Assembly (NCBI GenBank): GCA_030706735.1 | Contig: JAUZNZ010000013.1 | Location: forward strand, 1 to 64,000 | DNA: 64,000 nucleotides | Origin: Bacteroidota bacterium | GTDB lineage: Bacteria; Bacteroidota; Bacteroidia; Chitinophagales; Chitinophagaceae | Direction: 5' to 3' | In this document: positions 27,866 through 37,913 of the stretch, piece by piece | How positions within the stretch are numbered: the first letter of the stretch is position 1 | Layout of the letters: the number at the start of each line of letters is the position of its first letter | Position numbers and translations under genes: made by a program | Notes under the pieces: model-generated | What the model saw: only the letters and a program-made list of their open reading frames with translations | Databases searched by the model: none | Told to the model about the DNA's origin: nothing

Positions 27866-30800
27866 ATGAAAAGCCCTTTTCGCAAACTAATACGCATATC
27901 AGTAGTCCTGTTTGTATTGGTGCTCTTGTTCAATTTCTTCGGATACTACGTGAACCATCTCAGATCCCTTGAAAACAAAGAGCTTATAGAGGCCATCAAC
28001 CGGTCAGGACATCAGCAGACGCTTTCCCAGCTGATTGCCAAAGAGGCGATCCTGTTACTCAACAATCCGGATAAAAAGAACATCCCGGCGCTGAAGGACG
28101 ATCTCTCCGCGTCCCTGGCCCTTTTCCAGAAAGAGCAGGGCATCATGCAGAAGCAGGCCGGGTCGACCCCTCCACCCGTTCCCCCGGGCATATTTCAGAT
28201 CAAGTTATTGCTCTCCAGCTCGCAGCAGTTCTTCGAGCCGATCATCGCGACGGGCCAGGAGCTCACCCAGGCCGACTCCTCGCTGCTGGCCATCAACAAG
28301 CATCTCTATCAGCGAAACATGCTGTACAATCAGGAAAAATACAGCAGCCTGATGGGAGAGGTCACGCAGGATTATTCGGACATGGTCAATGAGAAGAACA
28401 AGGAAGTGGCGACGATCGATACCGGGAAATTCATCTTACTCATCGTGGCGATCATCTGCCTGATCATTCTGGTGCTGGAGCCGGCATTTAAAAGAGGGGA
28501 AAAGAACCACAAGGAATTGCAAAAAGCGAGGAATGAACTGTTGAATGAAAAGAAATTCCTGGCATCCATCCTGCAATCGCAAACCAACTATGTCATCCGT
28601 ATCAACCGGAGCGGACATTTTACCTATGCCAACCCGGCCTTTTTGAAAACCTTCGGGTACACCGCCCAGGAGATCCATCAGATCCTTTTTTATACGACCA
28701 TTTTTCCCAAGGACCTGGCGCGCTGTCAGCAGATCGCTGACGAGTGCTGGAATAACCCGGGAAAGGTGTCGCGCCTGTTGATCCGCAAGCCGATCGGGCA
28801 ATCGCGGCAGTTCATTTGGACCGAATGGGAATTCCTGGCCTTGTCTGAAAACGGGCAGGTCAATGAGATCCAGGGCATCGGGCTGAACGTTTCGGAGAAG
28901 TTGCAGACCCAGCAGATCAAGGAGGACGCCATCCGGACCTTGTCCTACGCCATGACCTATGCGAAAATGGGATCCTGGAAGCTGGACTTCCTCACCGGCG
29001 AGCTTTTACTGAGTAAAGAATTCAAGTCCCTGCTTGCGATGGAGGACGAGGACCCCGATAAGGTGTCTATAGAAACCTTCCTGCACACGTATGTCGTGCC
29101 TGAAGATTTCGTGCTGGTATCCGAAGAGATGTCCAAGTCGATCCAGAACAAGGAAAATACGGGCTATGAGACCACTTTCTCCTGCCGCATCATCACCAAG
29201 CAGGGCTGGATGCGGTACTTATCCGTCAAGGGAAAGATCGTCGACGAGCAGCAGCAATTCGGGATCGCGCAGGACATCACCTATCAGAAGGAATCGGAGA
29301 ATGCCTTGTTGAACAGCGAGCAGAAGTTCCGGCTGCTGGCGGAGAACTCCGAAGACATCATCAGCGTACATGCCATCGACGGAACCATCTGGTATCTCTC
29401 TCCGTCCATTACCACCGTGCTGGGCTACGAGGTGGACGACGTGGTCGGAAGATCCTTCGAGCAGTACGTTCACCCGGAGGACCGCCACAAATTCCTGCGG
29501 GCCGACCAGATCCCCTCCTTTAACGAGAACGAAAGCATTATCGTCCGTTACCGCATTTTGCGTAAACAGGGCAATTATATATGGCTGGAGAGCATCATCA
29601 AGCCGATCATCGACGAAGAAGAGCTGGTCAAGCTCATTTGCACGTCCCGGAATATCACGGAGCAGAAAATTGCCCAGGAAAAACTGAAGAAAAAAGACCA
29701 GCTCCTGCATGCCGTGGCCTCCGCCACCCATTCCCTGCTGATCAATACCAACCTGAACCAGGCCATCACCGAGTCCATCCAGACCCTGGGCCAGAAGGCC
29801 AATGTGGGCAGGGTTTATGTATTCCAGAACCACTTCGACCAGGAGCGGAATAAATGGCTTACCTCCGAGATCCACGAGTGGACGGAGCATCCCTCGGATT
29901 TCCGCCTGGACAACCCCGCCATCAAAAATATTCCCTTCGAAAATATCAGGAAGATCATCGAACCCTTGCAGCTCAACCAGCCCTTCCTCAGTTATAAGCA
30001 CAAGGAAGACGATCCGCAGCTGATGGCCATCTATGAAAAGACAGGGGTCTTATCGTCCGTGGCCGTGCCCATATTCCTCAAAGACGCTTTTTGGGGATTC
30101 GTCGGTTTCGACGAATTGAAGAAAGAGCGGGACTGGTCGGAGGCTGAATTCTCGATCCTGCGTTCCTATGCCTCTTCGCTGGCCGCGGCCATCGAACGCA
30201 AGCAGATCGAGGTGGAACTGGTGCAGGCCAAGGAACTTGCCGAGTCCGCCAGTCAGGCCAAGAGCGAATTCATGGCCAATATGAGCCATGAGTTGCGCAC
30301 GCCGATGAACGGCATCATCGGCTTCACGGACCTCGTGCTGACCACCGATCTGCAGAAGGCCCAGCGTGACTATCTGCAAAACGTCAAGAAATCCGCATAC
30401 GGCCTGCTGGGGATCATCAACGATATCCTCGACTTCTCGAAGATCGAGGCCGGCAAGCTGCTGATCGACCATACGCTCTTCAAGCTGGACGAGCTGATCG
30501 AAGAGACCATCGACATCCTGACCATCAAGGCCTTCGAAAAGCGGCTGGAGATGCTGTACCGGATCGATCCGACCATTCCATCGCAGTTCCTGGGCGATCC
30601 CGTGCGTATCCGCCAGGTCGTCGTCAACCTCCTCGGCAATGCCATCAAATTCACCGGCGAGGGCGAGATCCTCGTCTCCGTGCAGAAGACGGGCGAGCTT
30701 CAGCAGCGCGAAGGGAAGAAATTCATGAACCTCAGCATCGAGGTAAGGGATACGGGAATCGGCATCCGCAAAGACAAGCTGCAAAAAATATTCGAGAGCT

Positions 30801-31810
30801 TTACGCAGGCCGATACGTCCACGACGCGAAAATACGGGGGCACGGGCCTGGGCCTGACCATCTCGAAAAGCCTGTCGGAACTGATGGGAGGCCATCTTGC
30901 CGTGGAAAGCACGCCTGGGCAGGGCAGCCGGTTCATCCTGCACCTGGTGCTGGAAGTGGCCAATGAGCAGCCCGAAGTATTGTTACCGCAGGAGCCATTG
31001 GTGCACAAGGTGCTGATCGTGGATGACAACCCGACCAACCTGGAGCTGTTGAAGGAAAGCTTCGGCTACTTCCGGATCGATTCACAACTGGCGGGGAGCG
31101 CGGCCGAGGCCATGAAGAAGATCGAGCTGGCGGAAGAAGCCGGCGAGCCATTCGACCTGATCGTTACCGACCATCTCATGCCCGTCATGGACGGCATCAG
31201 CATGGTCAGGGAAATAAAGCGGACCTATCCCAAGAACAATCAGCCGATCATACTCATGCTGTCTTCACTGGAAAAGAATATGTATCAGAATGAGGCCGGC
31301 AAACTCGGCATCAGCAAGTTCCTGTCCAAGCCGGTGAAGCTGCACGAATTGCATGCAACCCTCTTGTCCCTGTTTGAAAAGACCATGCAGAACGACCAGT
31401 TGCATCCCTCCATTCCCAATGTCGAGAAGATCTCCGAGCCAAGCAGTATCCTGGTCGCGGATGACGATCCGATCAATATGCTGCTCATCTCCGAGGTGTT
31501 GCGTCGCATGGGCTTCGACGTGATCCAGGTATCCAATGGGAAGGAAGCGCTGGAGCGACTCCCTCATTGCGATCCGGTACTGATCTTCATGGATGTGAAT
31601 ATGCCGGAAATGGATGGCTACACGACGACCCGGCATATCCGGAAGATGCCCGAGCCCTGGTGCAATATTCCCATCATTGCGCTGACCGCGGATGCCATGA
31701 AGGGCGACCGCGAAAAATGCCTCGAGGCCGGGATGAATAAATATATTTCGAAGCCGTTCCGTCTCGAAGAGATCGATGAGGTGCTGAGGAACTATACGCT
31801 GGTGGTCTAG
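27866..31810 (+). CDS. Hybrid sensor histidine kinase with three PAS, GAF and two receiver domains
   Basis: A membrane sensor of 1314 residues. Order: membrane segment (about 10-30), periplasmic helical sensor (about 35-185, similar to the PilJ/type IV pili methyl-accepting sensor, with asparagine/glutamine-rich helices), membrane segment (about 188-206), three PAS domains (about 235-345, 355-470 and 485-605), GAF (about 620-785), kinase with His808 in MSHELRTPMNG, ATPase domain with GTGLGLTISKSL, and two receivers with phospho-acceptors Asp1102 and Asp1243. There is no DNA-binding or HPt domain, so a separate phosphotransfer partner is needed and is not in this window. A perfect palindrome ATAACTAGTTAT lies at 27707-27718 upstream. 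Confidence 0.93.
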   Translation: MKSPFRKLIRISVVLFVLVLLFNFFGYYVNHLRSLENKELIEAINRSGHQQTLSQLIAKEAILLLNNPDKKNIPALKDDLSASLALFQKEQGIMQKQAGSTPPPVPPGIFQIKLLLSSSQQFFEPIIATGQELTQADSSLLAINKHLYQRNMLYNQEKYSSLMGEVTQDYSDMVNEKNKEVATIDTGKFILLIVAIICLIILVLEPAFKRGEKNHKELQKARNELLNEKKFLASILQSQTNYVIRINRSGHFTYANPAFLKTFGYTAQEIHQILFYTTIFPKDLARCQQIADECWNNPGKVSRLLIRKPIGQSRQFIWTEWEFLALSENGQVNEIQGIGLNVSEKLQTQQIKEDAIRTLSYAMTYAKMGSWKLDFLTGELLLSKEFKSLLAMEDEDPDKVSIETFLHTYVVPEDFVLVSEEMSKSIQNKENTGYETTFSCRIITKQGWMRYLSVKGKIVDEQQQFGIAQDITYQKESENALLNSEQKFRLLAENSEDIISVHAIDGTIWYLSPSITTVLGYEVDDVVGRSFEQYVHPEDRHKFLRADQIPSFNENESIIVRYRILRKQGNYIWLESIIKPIIDEEELVKLICTSRNITEQKIAQEKLKKKDQLLHAVASATHSLLINTNLNQAITESIQTLGQKANVGRVYVFQNHFDQERNKWLTSEIHEWTEHPSDFRLDNPAIKNIPFENIRKIIEPLQLNQPFLSYKHKEDDPQLMAIYEKTGVLSSVAVPIFLKDAFWGFVGFDELKKERDWSEAEFSILRSYASSLAAAIERKQIEVELVQAKELAESASQAKSEFMANMSHELRTPMNGIIGFTDLVLTTDLQKAQRDYLQNVKKSAYGLLGIINDILDFSKIEAGKLLIDHTLFKLDELIEETIDILTIKAFEKRLEMLYRIDPTIPSQFLGDPVRIRQVVVNLLGNAIKFTGEGEILVSVQKTGELQQREGKKFMNLSIEVRDTGIGIRKDKLQKIFESFTQADTSTTRKYGGTGLGLTISKSLSELMGGHLAVESTPGQGSRFILHLVLEVANEQPEVLLPQEPLVHKVLIVDDNPTNLELLKESFGYFRIDSQLAGSAAEAMKKIELAEEAGEPFDLIVTDHLMPVMDGISMVREIKRTYPKNNQPIILMLSSLEKNMYQNEAGKLGISKFLSKPVKLHELHATLLSLFEKTMQNDQLHPSIPNVEKISEPSSILVADDDPINMLLISEVLRRMGFDVIQVSNGKEALERLPHCDPVLIFMDVNMPEMDGYTTTRHIRKMPEPWCNIPIIALTADAMKGDREKCLEAGMNKYISKPFRLEEIDEVLRNYTLVV

Positions 31811-32554: not shown

Positions 32555-33981
32555 AGCTGGGAATTTTGGCGGGGAATCCTGATCAGGAAGCGGCTGCCGA
32601 TGCCCTCCTCGCTGTCCACACGGATCGTTGCGCCCTGTCGCTGCAGGATATAATACACATAGCTCAGGCCCATCCCGTACCCTTTTACATTGTGCTTGTC
32701 ACCGGTGGGAACGCGGAAGAATTTTTCGAATATCCGGTCCTTGTAGGCCGCTGGAATGCCGATGCCGTTATCGACGACGGACAGGGCCAGTTGTTCCGGC
32801 CCGGCGCTCAGATCGATCTGGATGGAGGGGTTGGACTTGCTGTACTTCAGGGCATTGTCCAGGAGATTAAACAGCACGCTGGTAAAATGCAGCTTGTCCG
32901 CATAGAGCTGATACTCGTCGTCGTCGCCCGCGGCGTGGAAACTGACCTTTGCGCCATATTTCTCGAATTGCAGACGCATCGAGGACAAGACCTCTTTCGC
33001 GAGGAGGCGCATGTCGAAACGCTCCTTCTTCAATTCGATCTCCTGCCGTTCGAAGAGAGACAACTTCAACACCTTATCGACCAACAGGGACAGGCGCTGG
33101 AGCTCTTCGGCGGATATGTCGAGATATTCTTTCGTACGGGCGGGATCCTCGAGCGCGTTGAATTTTCTGAGTGCTTCGACGGCCACGCTGACCGTAGCGA
33201 TGGGTGTCTTTAGTTCGTGGGTGATATTGCTGATGAAATCGTTCTTCAATTCGGTGAGTCTTCGTTGCTGCTGCCAGTTACGATAGAGCAGGAGGAGGGA
33301 CAGGACCGTAAAACCCACCAGCAGGAGGGAGAAGAGGGCCTGCGGACCGATGCGCGCGGCCATATACCAGAACGTATGGTCGAAATGGACCTCGTAGGCC
33401 AGCGGCTTGCTGAAGCCCAGCACTACCTTATTGCCAATGGAGTCCGAGGAAAGTGATTCCTGGAGACTATCTCCCGGGCGGGCGGTGATCCGGAAAGGCA
33501 AATGGATGCCATCCCCCGCCAGGGCCATGGCGTACCGGGGACTGATCTCCGCCGCCGTGATCGGTTTGGCAAGTGAATCGAGGCCAGCCAACAAACTGAT
33601 GATCTTGCTGTTGGACGTGCGGAAGAAGACACGTCTGCCCGGAGAATCCGTCTCCTCATCCATGCCCAGATGATCCATGGTAACGACAAGGGATTGCGTG
33701 CTATTTGCCTGTCCGGAACTGTCAACGGTCACCCGGTCGTGGATCATTTTCTTCATGGTGATGATCGCCGGCGGACCCTGCTCGCGCAGGCCGATGCTGG
33801 TATCCAGATGCATCCGGGATGCCTGCATTTTGAACATCGTTTCACGGAAGAGGAGATTGGTTCGGATCGTGAACAATTTCCTTTCATCGATATAGTTCTT
33901 CCGCAGCCAGGATGCCTGGAAGGCCACGATCGTGCCGATCGTGAGGATCATGAGGATTATGGCAACCCGGCGTTTGCGCAT
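32551..33981 (-). CDS. Sensor histidine kinase, partner of the OmpR-type regulator
   Basis: A membrane kinase of 476 residues. I use the ATG at 33981, just before MRKRRVAIILMILTIG; an upstream TTG at 33999 would add six residues. Two membrane segments (about 8-25 and 212-232) flank a periplasmic sensor of about 185 residues of no known type. The kinase core has the phospho-acceptor His in ISNITHELKTPIATVS, the N box LLDNALKYS and a G box VVDNGIGIP with GYGMGLSYVYYI. Together with the following regulator it forms a classical pair. Its promoter region is shared with the divergent GLPGLI gene; TATTTTTG lies at 33994-33987. Confidence 0.94.
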   Translation of the reverse strand: MRKRRVAIILMILTIGTIVAFQASWLRKNYIDERKLFTIRTNLLFRETMFKMQASRMHLDTSIGLREQGPPAIITMKKMIHDRVTVDSSGQANSTQSLVVTMDHLGMDEETDSPGRRVFFRTSNSKIISLLAGLDSLAKPITAAEISPRYAMALAGDGIHLPFRITARPGDSLQESLSSDSIGNKVVLGFSKPLAYEVHFDHTFWYMAARIGPQALFSLLLVGFTVLSLLLLYRNWQQQRRLTELKNDFISNITHELKTPIATVSVAVEALRKFNALEDPARTKEYLDISAEELQRLSLLVDKVLKLSLFERQEIELKKERFDMRLLAKEVLSSMRLQFEKYGAKVSFHAAGDDDEYQLYADKLHFTSVLFNLLDNALKYSKSNPSIQIDLSAGPEQLALSVVDNGIGIPAAYKDRIFEKFFRVPTGDKHNVKGYGMGLSYVYYILQRQGATIRVDSEEGIGSRFLIRIPRQNSQL

Positions 33982-34023
33982 GGTGGCAAAAATAGACAAA
34001 AGGGGGCGCAGCCGTTCCCGCCA

Positions 34024-34068
34024 TTAACCTTAATTAACATTAAACCAAGGCCGGTTAACCTGTTTTGG
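34024..34068 (+). promoter_or_regulatory. TTAAC box upstream of the GLPGLI gene (copy 1)
   Basis: TTAAC at 34024, 34034 and 34055, with spacing N5 and N16. After exactly 22 bases follows the -7 box TAGATTTG. A second copy with 36 of 45 identical bases and the same spacing sits upstream of the beta-barrel gene at 37869-37913. Ten-base periodic TTAAC resembles OmpR-type binding sites. The third unit replaces the -33 TTG, a typical activator position. The box also lies 29 bases upstream of the kinase -7 box on the other strand. Confidence 0.7.
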
Positions 34069-34081
34069 ATGTTGGCAAAAA

Positions 34082-34089
34082 TAGATTTG
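34082..34089 (+). promoter_or_regulatory. -7 box of the GLPGLI gene
   Basis: TAGATTTG, 18 bases before the ATG at 34108, matching TAnnTTTG exactly. No TTG at consensus distance; the TTAAC box ends 22 bases upstream. Confidence 0.55.
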
Positions 34090-34107
34090 TACCCTAAAAC
34101 GATCACT

Positions 34108-34866
34108 ATGCAAAAGTTATTTCTATTCGCCGCCTTGTTGCCTGCCGTGCAGACCCTGACGGCGCAAAATGCCACGACGTCCGCGCCCGTCCTGAAGGAA
34201 GGAAGGGTCATCTATGAGCGCAAGATAGACATGTACCGCAGGCTGGAGGACGAAAGTGCAAGGGCCATGATCCCCCAATACAATACCTCGAAGGCCGAGT
34301 TGGATTTTACGGGCGATATTTCGATCTATAAGAATATCAAGGAAGAGGAAGATATCCGGGATCATGCGGGCGACGATGGCAATGGCCGCGTGCTGATCAA
34401 AATGGGAGGAGCTGATGATCAGACCTATAAAGAACCGGCCACCGGCAAAATGATCCAGCAAAAAGAGCTTGGCCCTCGGAAATACATCATCGAGGACACG
34501 CTGCCCAAATCCAACTGGCATTTGGACGAGGGGGCGCGGACGATCAGGGGCTATGCCTGCAAGAAGGCCAGCACGACGAATCGCCAGGGGATGCCCATCA
34601 CGGCCTGGTATACGGAAAACATCCAATCCTCTTCGGGCCCGGAACTTTTCGGCGGACTCCCCGGCCTGATCCTGGAATTGAATGTCAATGACGGGGAGAT
34701 CGTGTATTTCGCCATCGATATCCTAAGCAAGGACTTCGACAAGACCATCGTGAAGGCGCCGTCGGAGGGGAAAAAAATCAGCGGCGCGGAATATCGCAAA
34801 ATGATGGAAGAACAGTTCGGCGTCAAACCCGGCGGGGGCCCGACCATCCGGATCATCCGGAACTAA
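34108..34866 (+). CDS. GLPGLI family secreted protein
   Basis: A periplasmic or surface protein of 252 residues. The signal peptide (about 1-19) ends LTAQ. The family tag GLPGLI is at 183-188, within FGGLPGLILELNV, and the beta-rich layout with WYTENIQSSSGPELFGGLPG is typical. The frame is open further upstream, but only the ATG at 34108 gives a signal peptide and fits the -7 box. GLPGLI proteins are confined mostly to Bacteroidota, often beside outer-membrane receptor genes; function is unknown. Here the barrel gene converges on it and both have the same 45-bp upstream element. Confidence 0.92.
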   Translation: MQKLFLFAALLPAVQTLTAQNATTSAPVLKEGRVIYERKIDMYRRLEDESARAMIPQYNTSKAELDFTGDISIYKNIKEEEDIRDHAGDDGNGRVLIKMGGADDQTYKEPATGKMIQQKELGPRKYIIEDTLPKSNWHLDEGARTIRGYACKKASTTNRQGMPITAWYTENIQSSSGPELFGGLPGLILELNVNDGEIVYFAIDILSKDFDKTIVKAPSEGKKISGAEYRKMMEEQFGVKPGGGPTIRIIRN

Positions 34867-34908
34867 GGGATCGGGGATTCCGGCGAGAGGAGCGGAGTGC
34901 GCGGCCTG

Positions 34909-37818
34909 CTATCGAACGATCTTGATGTCCATTTTACCTGACCCCTGGCCGCCTTGCATGTTCTTGCCTGCGAAGCGGCTGAGGTTATAGCTGAAACTGA
35001 GCAGCCAATACCTGTTCAGCACCCGATAGGAAACATCCTCGATATAATTCTGGCTGGTATTGCGCGAGAAGCCCGTATTGCGACTGAGGATATCGAACAC
35101 CTGGAGCCGGATGGTTCCTTTTTTATTTTTGAATAATTTCTCGGCGATCCCGGCATTCCAGATAAGGGGGCTGCTATTGTAGCCGGCCGGGAGACCGCTG
35201 CGGTGAATATAATCCAGGTCGCTGGCGAGGCTGAACCGGTCGCGGAGATACCAGTTTGCATCCAGGGTATAATCTTCCGTCCAGTAGGCCTGGTTCTGTG
35301 CCGGTTGCAAGGAGTAACGGACCTCGTTGTAATCCGCACGGATGCCTGCCGTGATATCGAGGGCTTCGCCCGAGACGAAATTGAGGTTGGCGCCCTGCCC
35401 CACCGTCCAGTTATTGCTGTTATTGGGTGCGCCGTTGACCAGGCCGCCATTGTGATCATAGGCCAGGTTGCTGCTGAGGCTCAGGTTGCTTCGAATTGCC
35501 CTGACCGGAAATTCCCAGGTCAGGTTGCCGTTCAGGCGGAACAAACCATCCCTGTTCACGGGCATGGTCACCTGCGCCCCCGAAGCCGCCAATTGGGAGC
35601 TATTCACGATACGGTCGTGAATGCCGCTGTAATTGACCATGGCAAAGAAACTGGTCCGGCGGAAAGGGTCGAAAGACAGGTAGTTCAACCGAAGGAGATG
35701 ATAATATTCCTGCCGGAGACCGGGGTTACCCAGCCTGACATTCAACGGATCCGAATTATCCGGCACGGGTTGGAGCTGGTTGAGGGCGGGTGGATTGGTA
35801 TAGGTGTTATAGAAGAGTCGCAGGTTCCGGTATTTGTTAAACTCATATTGCAAGGTCGCATCGGGGAGGATATTCAGATAGGACTGCTTCAGGATGCTGT
35901 CACCGCTGAGGTCGCTGAAGCGGTTGGATGAGGAGGCCTGCTGCATGGTGGCGCCGAAGGTTAGCTTGAACCGCTTTTGGATGGACTGCCAGCGAATGCC
36001 CTCCCGTTCATAGGTATAGCGGTTGGAAAAATCGTTGGTCAGCTGTGCGTCCGGCAGCGTGAACTTGCCGGCGCTGTCGGCATCCATGGTCCGCTTGTCC
36101 GAATGAGCATGTCTCTGGAAGGCATCAGCATGGAATTCAAGGAGGCTGGCCCTGGACAATGGCTCCGTATAGACCAGGCTGAGGCCATAGTTATTGCCGG
36201 ATGATGGCAGGGTATAGAACTGATCCAGCGAGTCGGTGGACGGGACCGACGGGTTGCCGGCGCCGCTATAATACCGGTTCACTGAAAACAGGTCGCCGCT
36301 CCCGCTGCTGTTGTTTAAACCGACAGAAAGATTGGCGGAAAAGGTCCGCCCTTTTTTGGCAAACCGGTGCCGGAACAAGGCGCTGCCATTCCAGGTATAG
36401 CCCGAGGCCGATGCATCGGTACTTGAGAACCCTTCATTCAGCAAGGTACCCGGCGACGGGGGGGCCGTAGAAAACGATCTCGAGGTGTCGATGGTTCGGG
36501 AATAGCTGCTGCTGCGCTGACCGATCAGCACGCTGGTGAATTTTATTGAATTGACCGAATCGATCCGATGATCCGCGATCAGGGTGAAGCGCTGATTCTC
36601 GTTATGGCGTTGGCCCATGCTGTGTTGATCCTGTGAGTAAGAATGGTCAGGAGCGAGGTACCGGCGGGTATTGTGCAAATCGGTGCGGTCGTCGGCCCGG
36701 TTATAAAAATAATTGGCGTTGACCTCGGTACGATTAGACCAGTCATCATTGTAGTTCAGTCCGCCGGCGAGGGTATTGGTGATTGCCTGGTTGTTATCGG
36801 TCAGACCCTGAATGGGGATCCCTGAATTAAACGGATCGGATAGACCGCCCCTTCCACCGGAGCTGCCGGGCCCGGAGAGATTGGAAAGCCCGCCCCCAAA
36901 TCCTAATACGTCCTGGAAGGAGAAGCCCTGTTTGTTTGTGTTATTGGCCATGCCGATGGCGGAGAGCTGGCGATCGTTGTGAAATTGATTGATGTCGAGG
37001 TTAGCCTCGTAGCGGCCGTCACCGGCGGGTTTGCCGCCGGAGGGCCAGGCGTCGGCGCCGGCAGCAGCCGTCGCCCGCCCGAATGTACCACGACGTTTAT
37101 CCTTCTTGATGGTCAGATTGATCGTCTTCTGGCTGTTGCCGTCGTCGAAGCCCGTGAATTGGGATTGATCCGACTTTTTGTCGAAGACCTGGACCTTGTC
37201 GACGGCGTCCGCCGGAAGATTCTTGCTGGCGATCTTCGGGTCGGCGCCAAAGAACTCTTTCCCATCGACCAATACCTTTTTGACCTCTTCGCCATTGGCC
37301 TTGATCACCCCATTCTTATCCACCTGCACGCCCGGCAGTTTCTTCAACAGGTCTTCCACGACGGCATCCGGTTTGGTCTTAAAGGAACTGGCGTTGAACT
37401 CTACCGTATCGTGTCGGATGGTCACGGGCGGCGCCTCCTGTTCCACGGTAAAGGCATCGAGGAGTCCGGCCTTATCCCTAAGGGGAATGACTCCAAGGTC
37501 GATGGAGCGGATCAGATCGGTGATCACAAAAACCTGGCTAACGGACCGGTATCCGACATGGGTGATCAGCAGCCGGTACGTACCTTTATCCAGGGCATTC
37601 ACACGGAAAAGGCCCGAGGGATCGCTGCGGGTAAAGCCGACCAGGGATGAATCGCGAATAGTCAGTACCGTGACCGTTGCATCCGCCACCGAAGCATGGC
37701 TGGCGGTATCTTGCAGCCGGCCGCGGATACTCCCGTCATGCTGAGCCAGGGCATCGGGCGAAAGCGCCAGGAAGAAGGCGAGACACATGAAGGCTGCGGG
37801 TAAGCGGGGCTGACTCAT
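34909..37818 (-). CDS. Outer-membrane beta-barrel protein with carboxypeptidase-regulatory and plug-like domains
   Basis: A large outer-membrane protein (969 residues) related to TonB-dependent receptors (OMP_b-brl_3 type barrel). Signal peptide 1-26 ends DALA. Residues about 28-110 form a carboxypeptidase-regulatory-like domain, about 120-240 a plug-like domain (KKLPGVQVDKNGVIKANGEE, DGKEFFGADPK), and about 250-969 a barrel whose last strand is RYWLLSFSYNLSRF, followed by a short Gly/Gln tail. No clear TonB box is seen. It is convergent with the GLPGLI gene. The upstream TTAAC box (37869-37913) is shared with that gene. Ligand is unknown; the barrel may export or take up a peptide or metal compound. 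Confidence 0.92.
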   Translation of the reverse strand: MSQPRLPAAFMCLAFFLALSPDALAQHDGSIRGRLQDTASHASVADATVTVLTIRDSSLVGFTRSDPSGLFRVNALDKGTYRLLITHVGYRSVSQVFVITDLIRSIDLGVIPLRDKAGLLDAFTVEQEAPPVTIRHDTVEFNASSFKTKPDAVVEDLLKKLPGVQVDKNGVIKANGEEVKKVLVDGKEFFGADPKIASKNLPADAVDKVQVFDKKSDQSQFTGFDDGNSQKTINLTIKKDKRRGTFGRATAAAGADAWPSGGKPAGDGRYEANLDINQFHNDRQLSAIGMANNTNKQGFSFQDVLGFGGGLSNLSGPGSSGGRGGLSDPFNSGIPIQGLTDNNQAITNTLAGGLNYNDDWSNRTEVNANYFYNRADDRTDLHNTRRYLAPDHSYSQDQHSMGQRHNENQRFTLIADHRIDSVNSIKFTSVLIGQRSSSYSRTIDTSRSFSTAPPSPGTLLNEGFSSTDASASGYTWNGSALFRHRFAKKGRTFSANLSVGLNNSSGSGDLFSVNRYYSGAGNPSVPSTDSLDQFYTLPSSGNNYGLSLVYTEPLSRASLLEFHADAFQRHAHSDKRTMDADSAGKFTLPDAQLTNDFSNRYTYEREGIRWQSIQKRFKLTFGATMQQASSSNRFSDLSGDSILKQSYLNILPDATLQYEFNKYRNLRLFYNTYTNPPALNQLQPVPDNSDPLNVRLGNPGLRQEYYHLLRLNYLSFDPFRRTSFFAMVNYSGIHDRIVNSSQLAASGAQVTMPVNRDGLFRLNGNLTWEFPVRAIRSNLSLSSNLAYDHNGGLVNGAPNNSNNWTVGQGANLNFVSGEALDITAGIRADYNEVRYSLQPAQNQAYWTEDYTLDANWYLRDRFSLASDLDYIHRSGLPAGYNSSPLIWNAGIAEKLFKNKKGTIRLQVFDILSRNTGFSRNTSQNYIEDVSYRVLNRYWLLSFSYNLSRFAGKNMQGGQGSGKMDIKIVR

Positions 37819-37847
37819 ACCGGTTTGTTTTCGTTACTCGATGGCAA

Positions 37848-37855
37848 CGAAAGTA
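37848..37855 (-). promoter_or_regulatory. -7-like box of the first beta-barrel gene
   Basis: TACTTTCG on the minus strand, one mismatch to TAnnTTTG. It lies exactly 22 bases after the third TTAAC of the box, the same distance as at the GLPGLI promoter, and 29 bases before the ATG. Confidence 0.5.
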
Positions 37856-37868
37856 CCGGTGGCGGTGG

Positions 37869-37913
37869 CTAAAGCAGGTTAACCAGCTTGGAATTAATGT
37901 TAAGCAAGGTTAA
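37869..37913 (-). promoter_or_regulatory. TTAAC box upstream of the first beta-barrel gene (copy 2)
   Basis: On the minus strand TTAAC starts at 37913, 37903 and 37882 (N5 and N16 spacing), with the common stretches CATTAA after the second unit and CTG after the third. Compared with 34024-34068, 36 of 45 bases agree without gaps and the distance to the -7-like box is equal. Confidence 0.7.

Follow-up and report, generated by a model that had tools for sequence, protein, structure and literature searches.

The locus studied here places an OmpR-type kinase/regulator pair next to a divergent GLPGLI family gene and close to an outer membrane beta-barrel gene, and it raises the question of whether the regulator controls both genes through a TTAAC element that precedes each of them. 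A sequence-only reading of the window (the whole stretch of DNA analyzed, 64,000 nucleotides of a Chitinophagaceae genome of 5.05 Mb in 100 contigs) had proposed such control. Both copies of the element fit TTAAC-N5-TTAAC-N16-TTAAC exactly, with zero mismatches (Table 1); a recount agreed that 36 of 45 bases are identical between the two 45-bp stretches compared in that reading, and the gap of 22 bases from the third TTAAC to the -7 box is indeed the same at both copies.

Table 1. Genes, predicted operators and -7 boxes of the locus. Operator coordinates give the conserved core of the 45 bp described earlier; open reading frames come from a simple caller, and start sites are possibly off.
Feature	Position	Strand	Remarks
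Operator copy 1 (predicted), TTAAC-N5-TTAAC-N16-TTAAC	34024..34059	+	between kinase and GLPGLI genes
Operator copy 2 (predicted), TTAAC-N5-TTAAC-N16-TTAAC	37878..37913	-	before first barrel gene
Sensor histidine kinase P0001, 476 aa	32551..33981	-	HisKA and HATPase_c domains
OmpR/PhoB-type response regulator P0002, 232 aa	31856..32554	-	predicted operator-binding protein
GLPGLI family protein P0004, 252 aa, target 1	34108..34866	+	TIGR01200
Outer membrane beta-barrel P0003, 969 aa, target 2	34909..37818	-	OMP_b-brl_3
-7 box TAGATTTG, GLPGLI promoter	34082..34089	+	22 nt past third TTAAC
-7 box TATTTTTG, kinase/regulator promoter	33987..33994	-	29 nt from first TTAAC
-7 box TACTTTCG, barrel promoter	37848..37855	-	22 nt past third TTAAC; one base off TAnnTTTG

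The kinase and regulator reading frames overlap by four bases. The regulator carries both domains typical of the OmpR/PhoB family, i.e., a receiver (PF00072, 88.7 bits) and a winged-helix Trans_reg_C domain (PF00486, 62.6 bits), each above its cut-off, and the direct repeat of about 10 bp that is a trait of sites bound by this family is present and conserved at the predicted operator. The region of the regulator that would recognize DNA (FFNSRNLDVYITKLR in the window) is strongly conserved across 126 kinase-linked regulators. The GLPGLI protein scored 142 bits against TIGR01200 (cut-off 50), and the barrel scored 109.3 bits against PF14905 (OMP_b-brl_3; cut-off 27) and also bears a carboxypeptidase-regulatory-like domain. 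To our knowledge, GLPGLI proteins are a named family for which no function is known; P0004 (34108-34863) also matches PNGase_F-II_N (PF22252, 36 bits, above cut-off), which is a hint on its fold. The identification of the regulator as RprY was rejected: NF051850 (RprY) is its top-scoring NCBIfam model, but the score of 211.3-211.7 bits is under the cut-off of 370, and two other regulators of the source genome score higher (305 and 267 bits, both also below 370). Among the surrounding genes, a secreted-looking protein of 194 aa (P0006, 37946-38530) with no Pfam or NCBIfam match is encoded between two barrel genes, a place taken by genes of 184-220 aa in several relatives, and a hybrid histidine kinase of 1314 aa (27866-31810), with PAS and two receiver stretches, is encoded convergently to the regulator gene, its place being occupied by a gene of approx. 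1175-1470 aa in a number of relatives.

The exact triple did not occur in 200 Markov-1 sequences of 64 kb, and no third copy was found in the source genome at 0 or 1 mismatch. With up to 2 mismatches the pattern gave 12 matches in the source genome, fewer than the 31 of a reversed control; loose matches were thus uninformative and loose matching was dropped. The source genome contains 25 PF14905 matches and three GLPGLI matches (two above cut-off), and the exact element precedes only one GLPGLI gene and one PF14905 barrel gene. A profile (R1) built from the sequences of 69 elements, with the window's own left out, recovered the two window sites with E-values of 8.6e-15 and 6.3e-10 (the next match, at 0.09, was partial), and these were the only full-length sites in the 5-Mb genome, in a first pass that scored 150 of 627 candidates and could thus miss weak extra targets. 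E-values from R1 are rough, as partial matches off known loci reach 2.7e-4 (G130), 0.002 (G028) and 0.004 (G004). The profile was also run on 26 chosen genomes: in the 12 without an orthologue of the kinase, none of which had contributed to it, no match fell below 0.01 (one reached 0.034), and 13 of the 14 with an orthologue were matched at E <= 0.05, several of these 14 by construction as they had contributed elements. The matches in G028 and G123 were counted as chance because they are partial and lie off the kinase locus; beside the kinase, the profile recovered the first two half-sites in both G025 and G076, and G043, where the contig ends by the kinase, gave no match.

Across 147 genomes of the family, the exact pattern was found 100 times in 55 genomes, as compared to 12 times for the reversed control. 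The conservation expected by the sequence-only reading was strongly borne out, as 46 of these copies precede a GLPGLI gene (45 with a kinase divergent) and 43 an OMP_b-brl_3 barrel gene; of the 11 that precede neither, eight are divergent from a related kinase. Orthologues of the kinase were well separated by score from other kinases (46 genomes reached 302.6-464.8 bits, whereas the next best place had 229.9) and occur in 47 of the 147 genomes, source genome included. The element is present in 42 of these 47 genomes and in 13 of the 100 genomes without an orthologue (P = 1e-19, Fisher's test). Among the 47, both the GLPGLI and the barrel copy were found in 36, a single copy in six and none in five. 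The barrel gene keeps its own copy when distant from the kinase (for example, 187 kb separate them in G102 and 162 kb do so in G141), and barrel copies lie on other contigs than the kinase in G002, G038, G080, G095 and G103.

Barrel scores, tabulated from the 76 barrel places among the matches listed, were also compared with the presence of kinase and element. Among the matches listed, the best barrel reached at least 600 bits in 34 genomes with kinase and element and in three with the kinase and no element (G129, G025 and G087, where the second-best barrel has the element). Nine genomes without an orthologue likewise had a best barrel of at least 600 bits among the matches listed; six of them have no element (G124, G044, G009, G131, G133 and G078) and three have one (G074, G112 and G048), all three being incomplete or cut (the contig of G074 stops 605 bases past the GLPGLI element, and completeness is 69 for G112 and 83 for G048). 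Two congeners of the window's organism (G035 and G127) have neither kinase orthologue nor element; the system is therefore patchy within the genus.

Kinase neighborhoods were compared for the 46 genomes plus 80 loci from named organisms. After removal of duplicates, and with two short loci (L073 and L137) set aside, 115 loci remained. A GLPGLI gene is divergent from the kinase in 97 of these, and the exact triple was found in all 97 (95 by a scan, and L092 and L097 by direct search, as over-long kinase reading frames masked both). Among loci from named organisms, the triple occurs for example in Chitinophaga, Niastella and Sediminibacterium, and the same conservation extends to Saprospiraceae, a Cyclobacteriaceae genome, Siphonobacter and Xanthocytophaga. 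Twelve loci have no GLPGLI gene and only the first two TTAAC (L044, L047, L048, L052, L100, L102, L107, L109, L112, L113, L116 and L155), which suggests that the GLPGLI promoter is accompanied by the last half-site and the kinase by the first two. The triple was found without a GLPGLI gene in six loci, two of which (L128 and L139) border the end of a contig, leaving L062, L065, L121 and L161.

Three arrangements of the triad were observed, all of them with the predicted operator before the targets. In most loci, the kinase is divergent from the GLPGLI gene and the barrel gene has a separate copy of the element; in L164, L165, L167, L168, L240 and L257 the kinase is divergent from a co-directional GLPGLI-barrel pair behind one element; and in L203 and L204 kinase, regulator, element, barrel and GLPGLI gene are co-directional, the GLPGLI label in these two loci coming from our own profile (in Pfam, the L204 candidate exceeded the cut-off for PNGase_F-II_N only, with 28.6 bits, and stayed below the cut-off of 25 for Porph_ging, with 17.5 bits). 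In a sample of 296 genomes from the phylum, the exact pattern occurred at 30 places in 23 genomes (control 26); outside the family it was not commoner than the control (20 vs 25 places). Of the 20 outside places, 13 adjoin a gene related to the window kinase and one lies before a barrel gene, pattern matches being the only places inspected. These copies beside related kinases suggest that the element belongs, as a predicted operator, to a subfamily of regulators. Four related kinase/regulator pairs (L215, L220, L224 and L226) have the same element and are divergent from an unrelated gene of approx. 1022-1067 aa, which in L215, the one of the four checked, encodes a TMEM260-like protein O-mannosyltransferase (PF11028).

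The N16 gap is constrained as well. Pairwise identity is 0.56-0.57 for the inner bases of the element and 0.26-0.35 for its flanks, and element positions 20-25 are partly conserved as A-n-C-A-A-g. In eight kinase-linked copies from two other families of the phylum (L244-L251), where the first TTAAC lies 40-41 nt from the kinase reading frame (113 in L244), seven have an extra TTAAC at position 20 and L248 has TTAAG. As positions 20-25 are partly conserved and a TTAAC stands there in other families, we read them as a putative degenerate fourth half-site.

To characterize the promoters, we analyzed the spacing between element and -7 box. Of 101 distinct GLPGLI elements, 55 have TAnnTTTG 22 nt past the last TTAAC; in six the distance is 21 or 23 nt, in 23 it is 12 nt and in nine 11 nt. 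For 70 of 79 barrel elements, TAnnTT(T/C)G follows at a distance of 22 nt (29 TTTG and 41 TTCG, the type found in the window). The kinase-side -7 box, overlooked in the sequence-only reading, is conserved in relatives, TAnnTTTG occurring at 28-30 nt in 90 of the 101 GLPGLI-class elements. According to the accessible part of a study on Flavobacterium psychrophilum, the sigma-A box of that species reads TAnnTTTG and spans -12 to -5 (PMC9723704). A TTTG at -33 (spacing of 18-21 nt) was found in 0/93, 0/71 and 2/92 elements of the three promoter classes (shuffled means 1.5, 1.7 and 1.4, respectively), and this lack of any excess over chance suggests activation. The 11-12 nt spacing is one helical turn shorter and keeps the same helix face with a different geometry; it puts the last half-site of these 32 elements in the promoter spacer, which fits simple activation less well. 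If the mRNA start of the kinase gene is placed 12 nt past the -7 TA, it falls 0-4 nt from an in-frame ATG for 42 of the 99 elements, among them that of the window (33979-33994), and the kinase transcript is thus likely leaderless.

Overall, operator conservation, spacing, co-occurrence with the kinase and target identity, all computed here, support the proposal that the regulator controls the GLPGLI and barrel genes, and we put at roughly 0.88 the probability that the adjacent OmpR-type response regulator has its operator in this element, which would thus mark its regulon. For binding by this regulator, activation and the signal, we infer the following scheme. The regulator would bind direct repeats about one helical turn apart (positions 0, 10, approx. 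20 in degenerate form, and 31), four half-sites corresponding to two side-by-side dimers, and would act on three promoters, i.e., those of kinase, GLPGLI and barrel genes. At the kinase promoter, the separate -7 box near the first half-site would provide autoregulation; at the other two, the last half-site would lie at approx. -39 to -35, i.e., at the expected -33 box. As all three classes keep the -7 box and show no -33 TTTG above chance, activation may be of the PhoB type, with the regulator substituting for the missing upstream promoter element; PhoB boxes replace the -35 element. The operators of E. coli ArcA and PhoB likewise consist of direct repeats of approx. 10-11 bp, whereas their promoters, targets and organisms differ. 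On sensing an envelope signal, the kinase would raise GLPGLI, barrel and kinase/regulator expression together.

The nearest precedents are PhoP of Riemerella anatipestifer, the closest of all, and HaeSR (PG0719/PG0720) of Porphyromonas gingivalis, both likened here by their described features. As far as the accessible text of its report goes, the Riemerella PhoP motif has the DAP-seq core TTTAACA and was likened to ArcA, PhoP bound its own promoter and that of an outer membrane barrel gene in EMSA, and among its 50 direct targets five encode GLPGLI proteins and another an outer membrane beta-barrel (PMC9603813); no motif spacing is given in that text. A TTAAC core, a kinase-side promoter and predicted GLPGLI and barrel targets are also present here, whereas Riemerella PhoP gave 583 peaks upstream of 764 genes (PMC9603813) as compared to two sites in our genome. 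HaeR, in the available portions of two reports, binds its own promoter (PMC3764172), and HaeSR, whose ChIP-seq targets include TonB-dependent receptors, resembles the system predicted here in its own-promoter site and its effect on GLPGLI transcripts but is linked to hemin and capsule (PMC3764172; PMC8757827); these portions state no binding motif. RprX/RprY of Bacteroides and Porphyromonas is, from the accessible part of its report, also of the OmpR/PhoB type (PMC6032018). The earlier remark that no described system of this kind with GLPGLI proteins was known is thus somewhat too strong, since Riemerella PhoP has GLPGLI genes as direct targets and loss of PG0720 lowers two GLPGLI transcripts. 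A literature search, which covered few subscription journals, found neither this element nor a GLPGLI-barrel regulon of such form described in any paper, and none on Porph_ging; titles and abstract beginnings on Bacteroidetes regulators with TTAAC direct repeats held none on this element. The GLPGLI name itself is scarce, being used by three of the 5.39 million papers searched, PMC5771137 among them. New here are the definition of the predicted operator, the proposed regulon with its two targets, and the distribution of this regulon across the family, and we read the system as a new, compact and probably autoregulated OmpR-type two-component regulon with a predicted direct-repeat operator.

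Several observations count against this reading, i.e., the five kinase-bearing genomes without a copy and the six with a single one, G140 (see below), the six loci where the triple lacks a GLPGLI gene, the 11-12 nt spacing, the TTCG boxes, the lack of an excess outside the family and, by analogy, the mixed effect of PhoP on GLPGLI genes in Riemerella. Repression by the same regulator would leave operator and regulon as proposed, so that the probability given above covers it too, and would differ only in the sign of control, the last half-site covering the -33 region and blocking RNA polymerase. The third TTAAC does overlap the expected -33 position, at 11-12 nt spacing the half-site falls within the promoter, and the Riemerella phoP mutant shows raised expression of one barrel and two GLPGLI genes; three other GLPGLI genes fall in that mutant, however (PMC9603813, accessible part), as do the transcripts of PG1492 and PG1908, both GLPGLI, upon deletion of PG0720 (PMC8757827, accessible part), and the absence of a -33 TTTG above chance in every class is what would be expected if an activator is needed. 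On this balance we regard repression as rather unlikely, with about one chance in four.

It is considerably less probable that another factor, such as a regulator not linked to the locus or an alternative sigma factor with a TTAAC upstream box, binds the element and that the neighboring kinase/regulator pair is coincidental. The 13 element-bearing genomes without a close kinase orthologue would speak for such a factor, but in nine of them the element adjoins a kinase/regulator pair that is more distantly related, another three are incomplete or truncated at a contig end, and only G140 (estimated completeness 100, with a barrel copy) is unexplained; moreover, the -7 boxes of the GLPGLI and kinase promoters conform to TAnnTTTG, the sigma-A consensus given in the accessible part of PMC9723704. 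That the two copies belong to a dispersed repeat or resemble each other by chance, as the loose matches no commoner than the control might have hinted, has a negligible probability and was rejected on the comparative counts (the excess of exact copies in the family, at fixed orientation and distance from the genes), the Markov-1 null and the unconserved flanks.

With the element as the predicted operator of the adjacent regulator, one GLPGLI lineage, one barrel lineage and one sensor pair would be tied together across the family and some relatives, so that their function could be searched for with a small set of deletions, and two little-understood protein families would gain a shared, testable role. 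The strict operator definition can be searched in any genome and offers a means of following how a single subfamily of regulators was wired to different targets. Tentatively, and with the odds against it, GLPGLI protein, barrel and kinase may form one envelope module, in which the GLPGLI protein would work with this TonB-receptor-like barrel in the outer membrane and the kinase would sense its state or cargo; if this is true, the regulon would close a feedback loop on one outer-membrane pathway.
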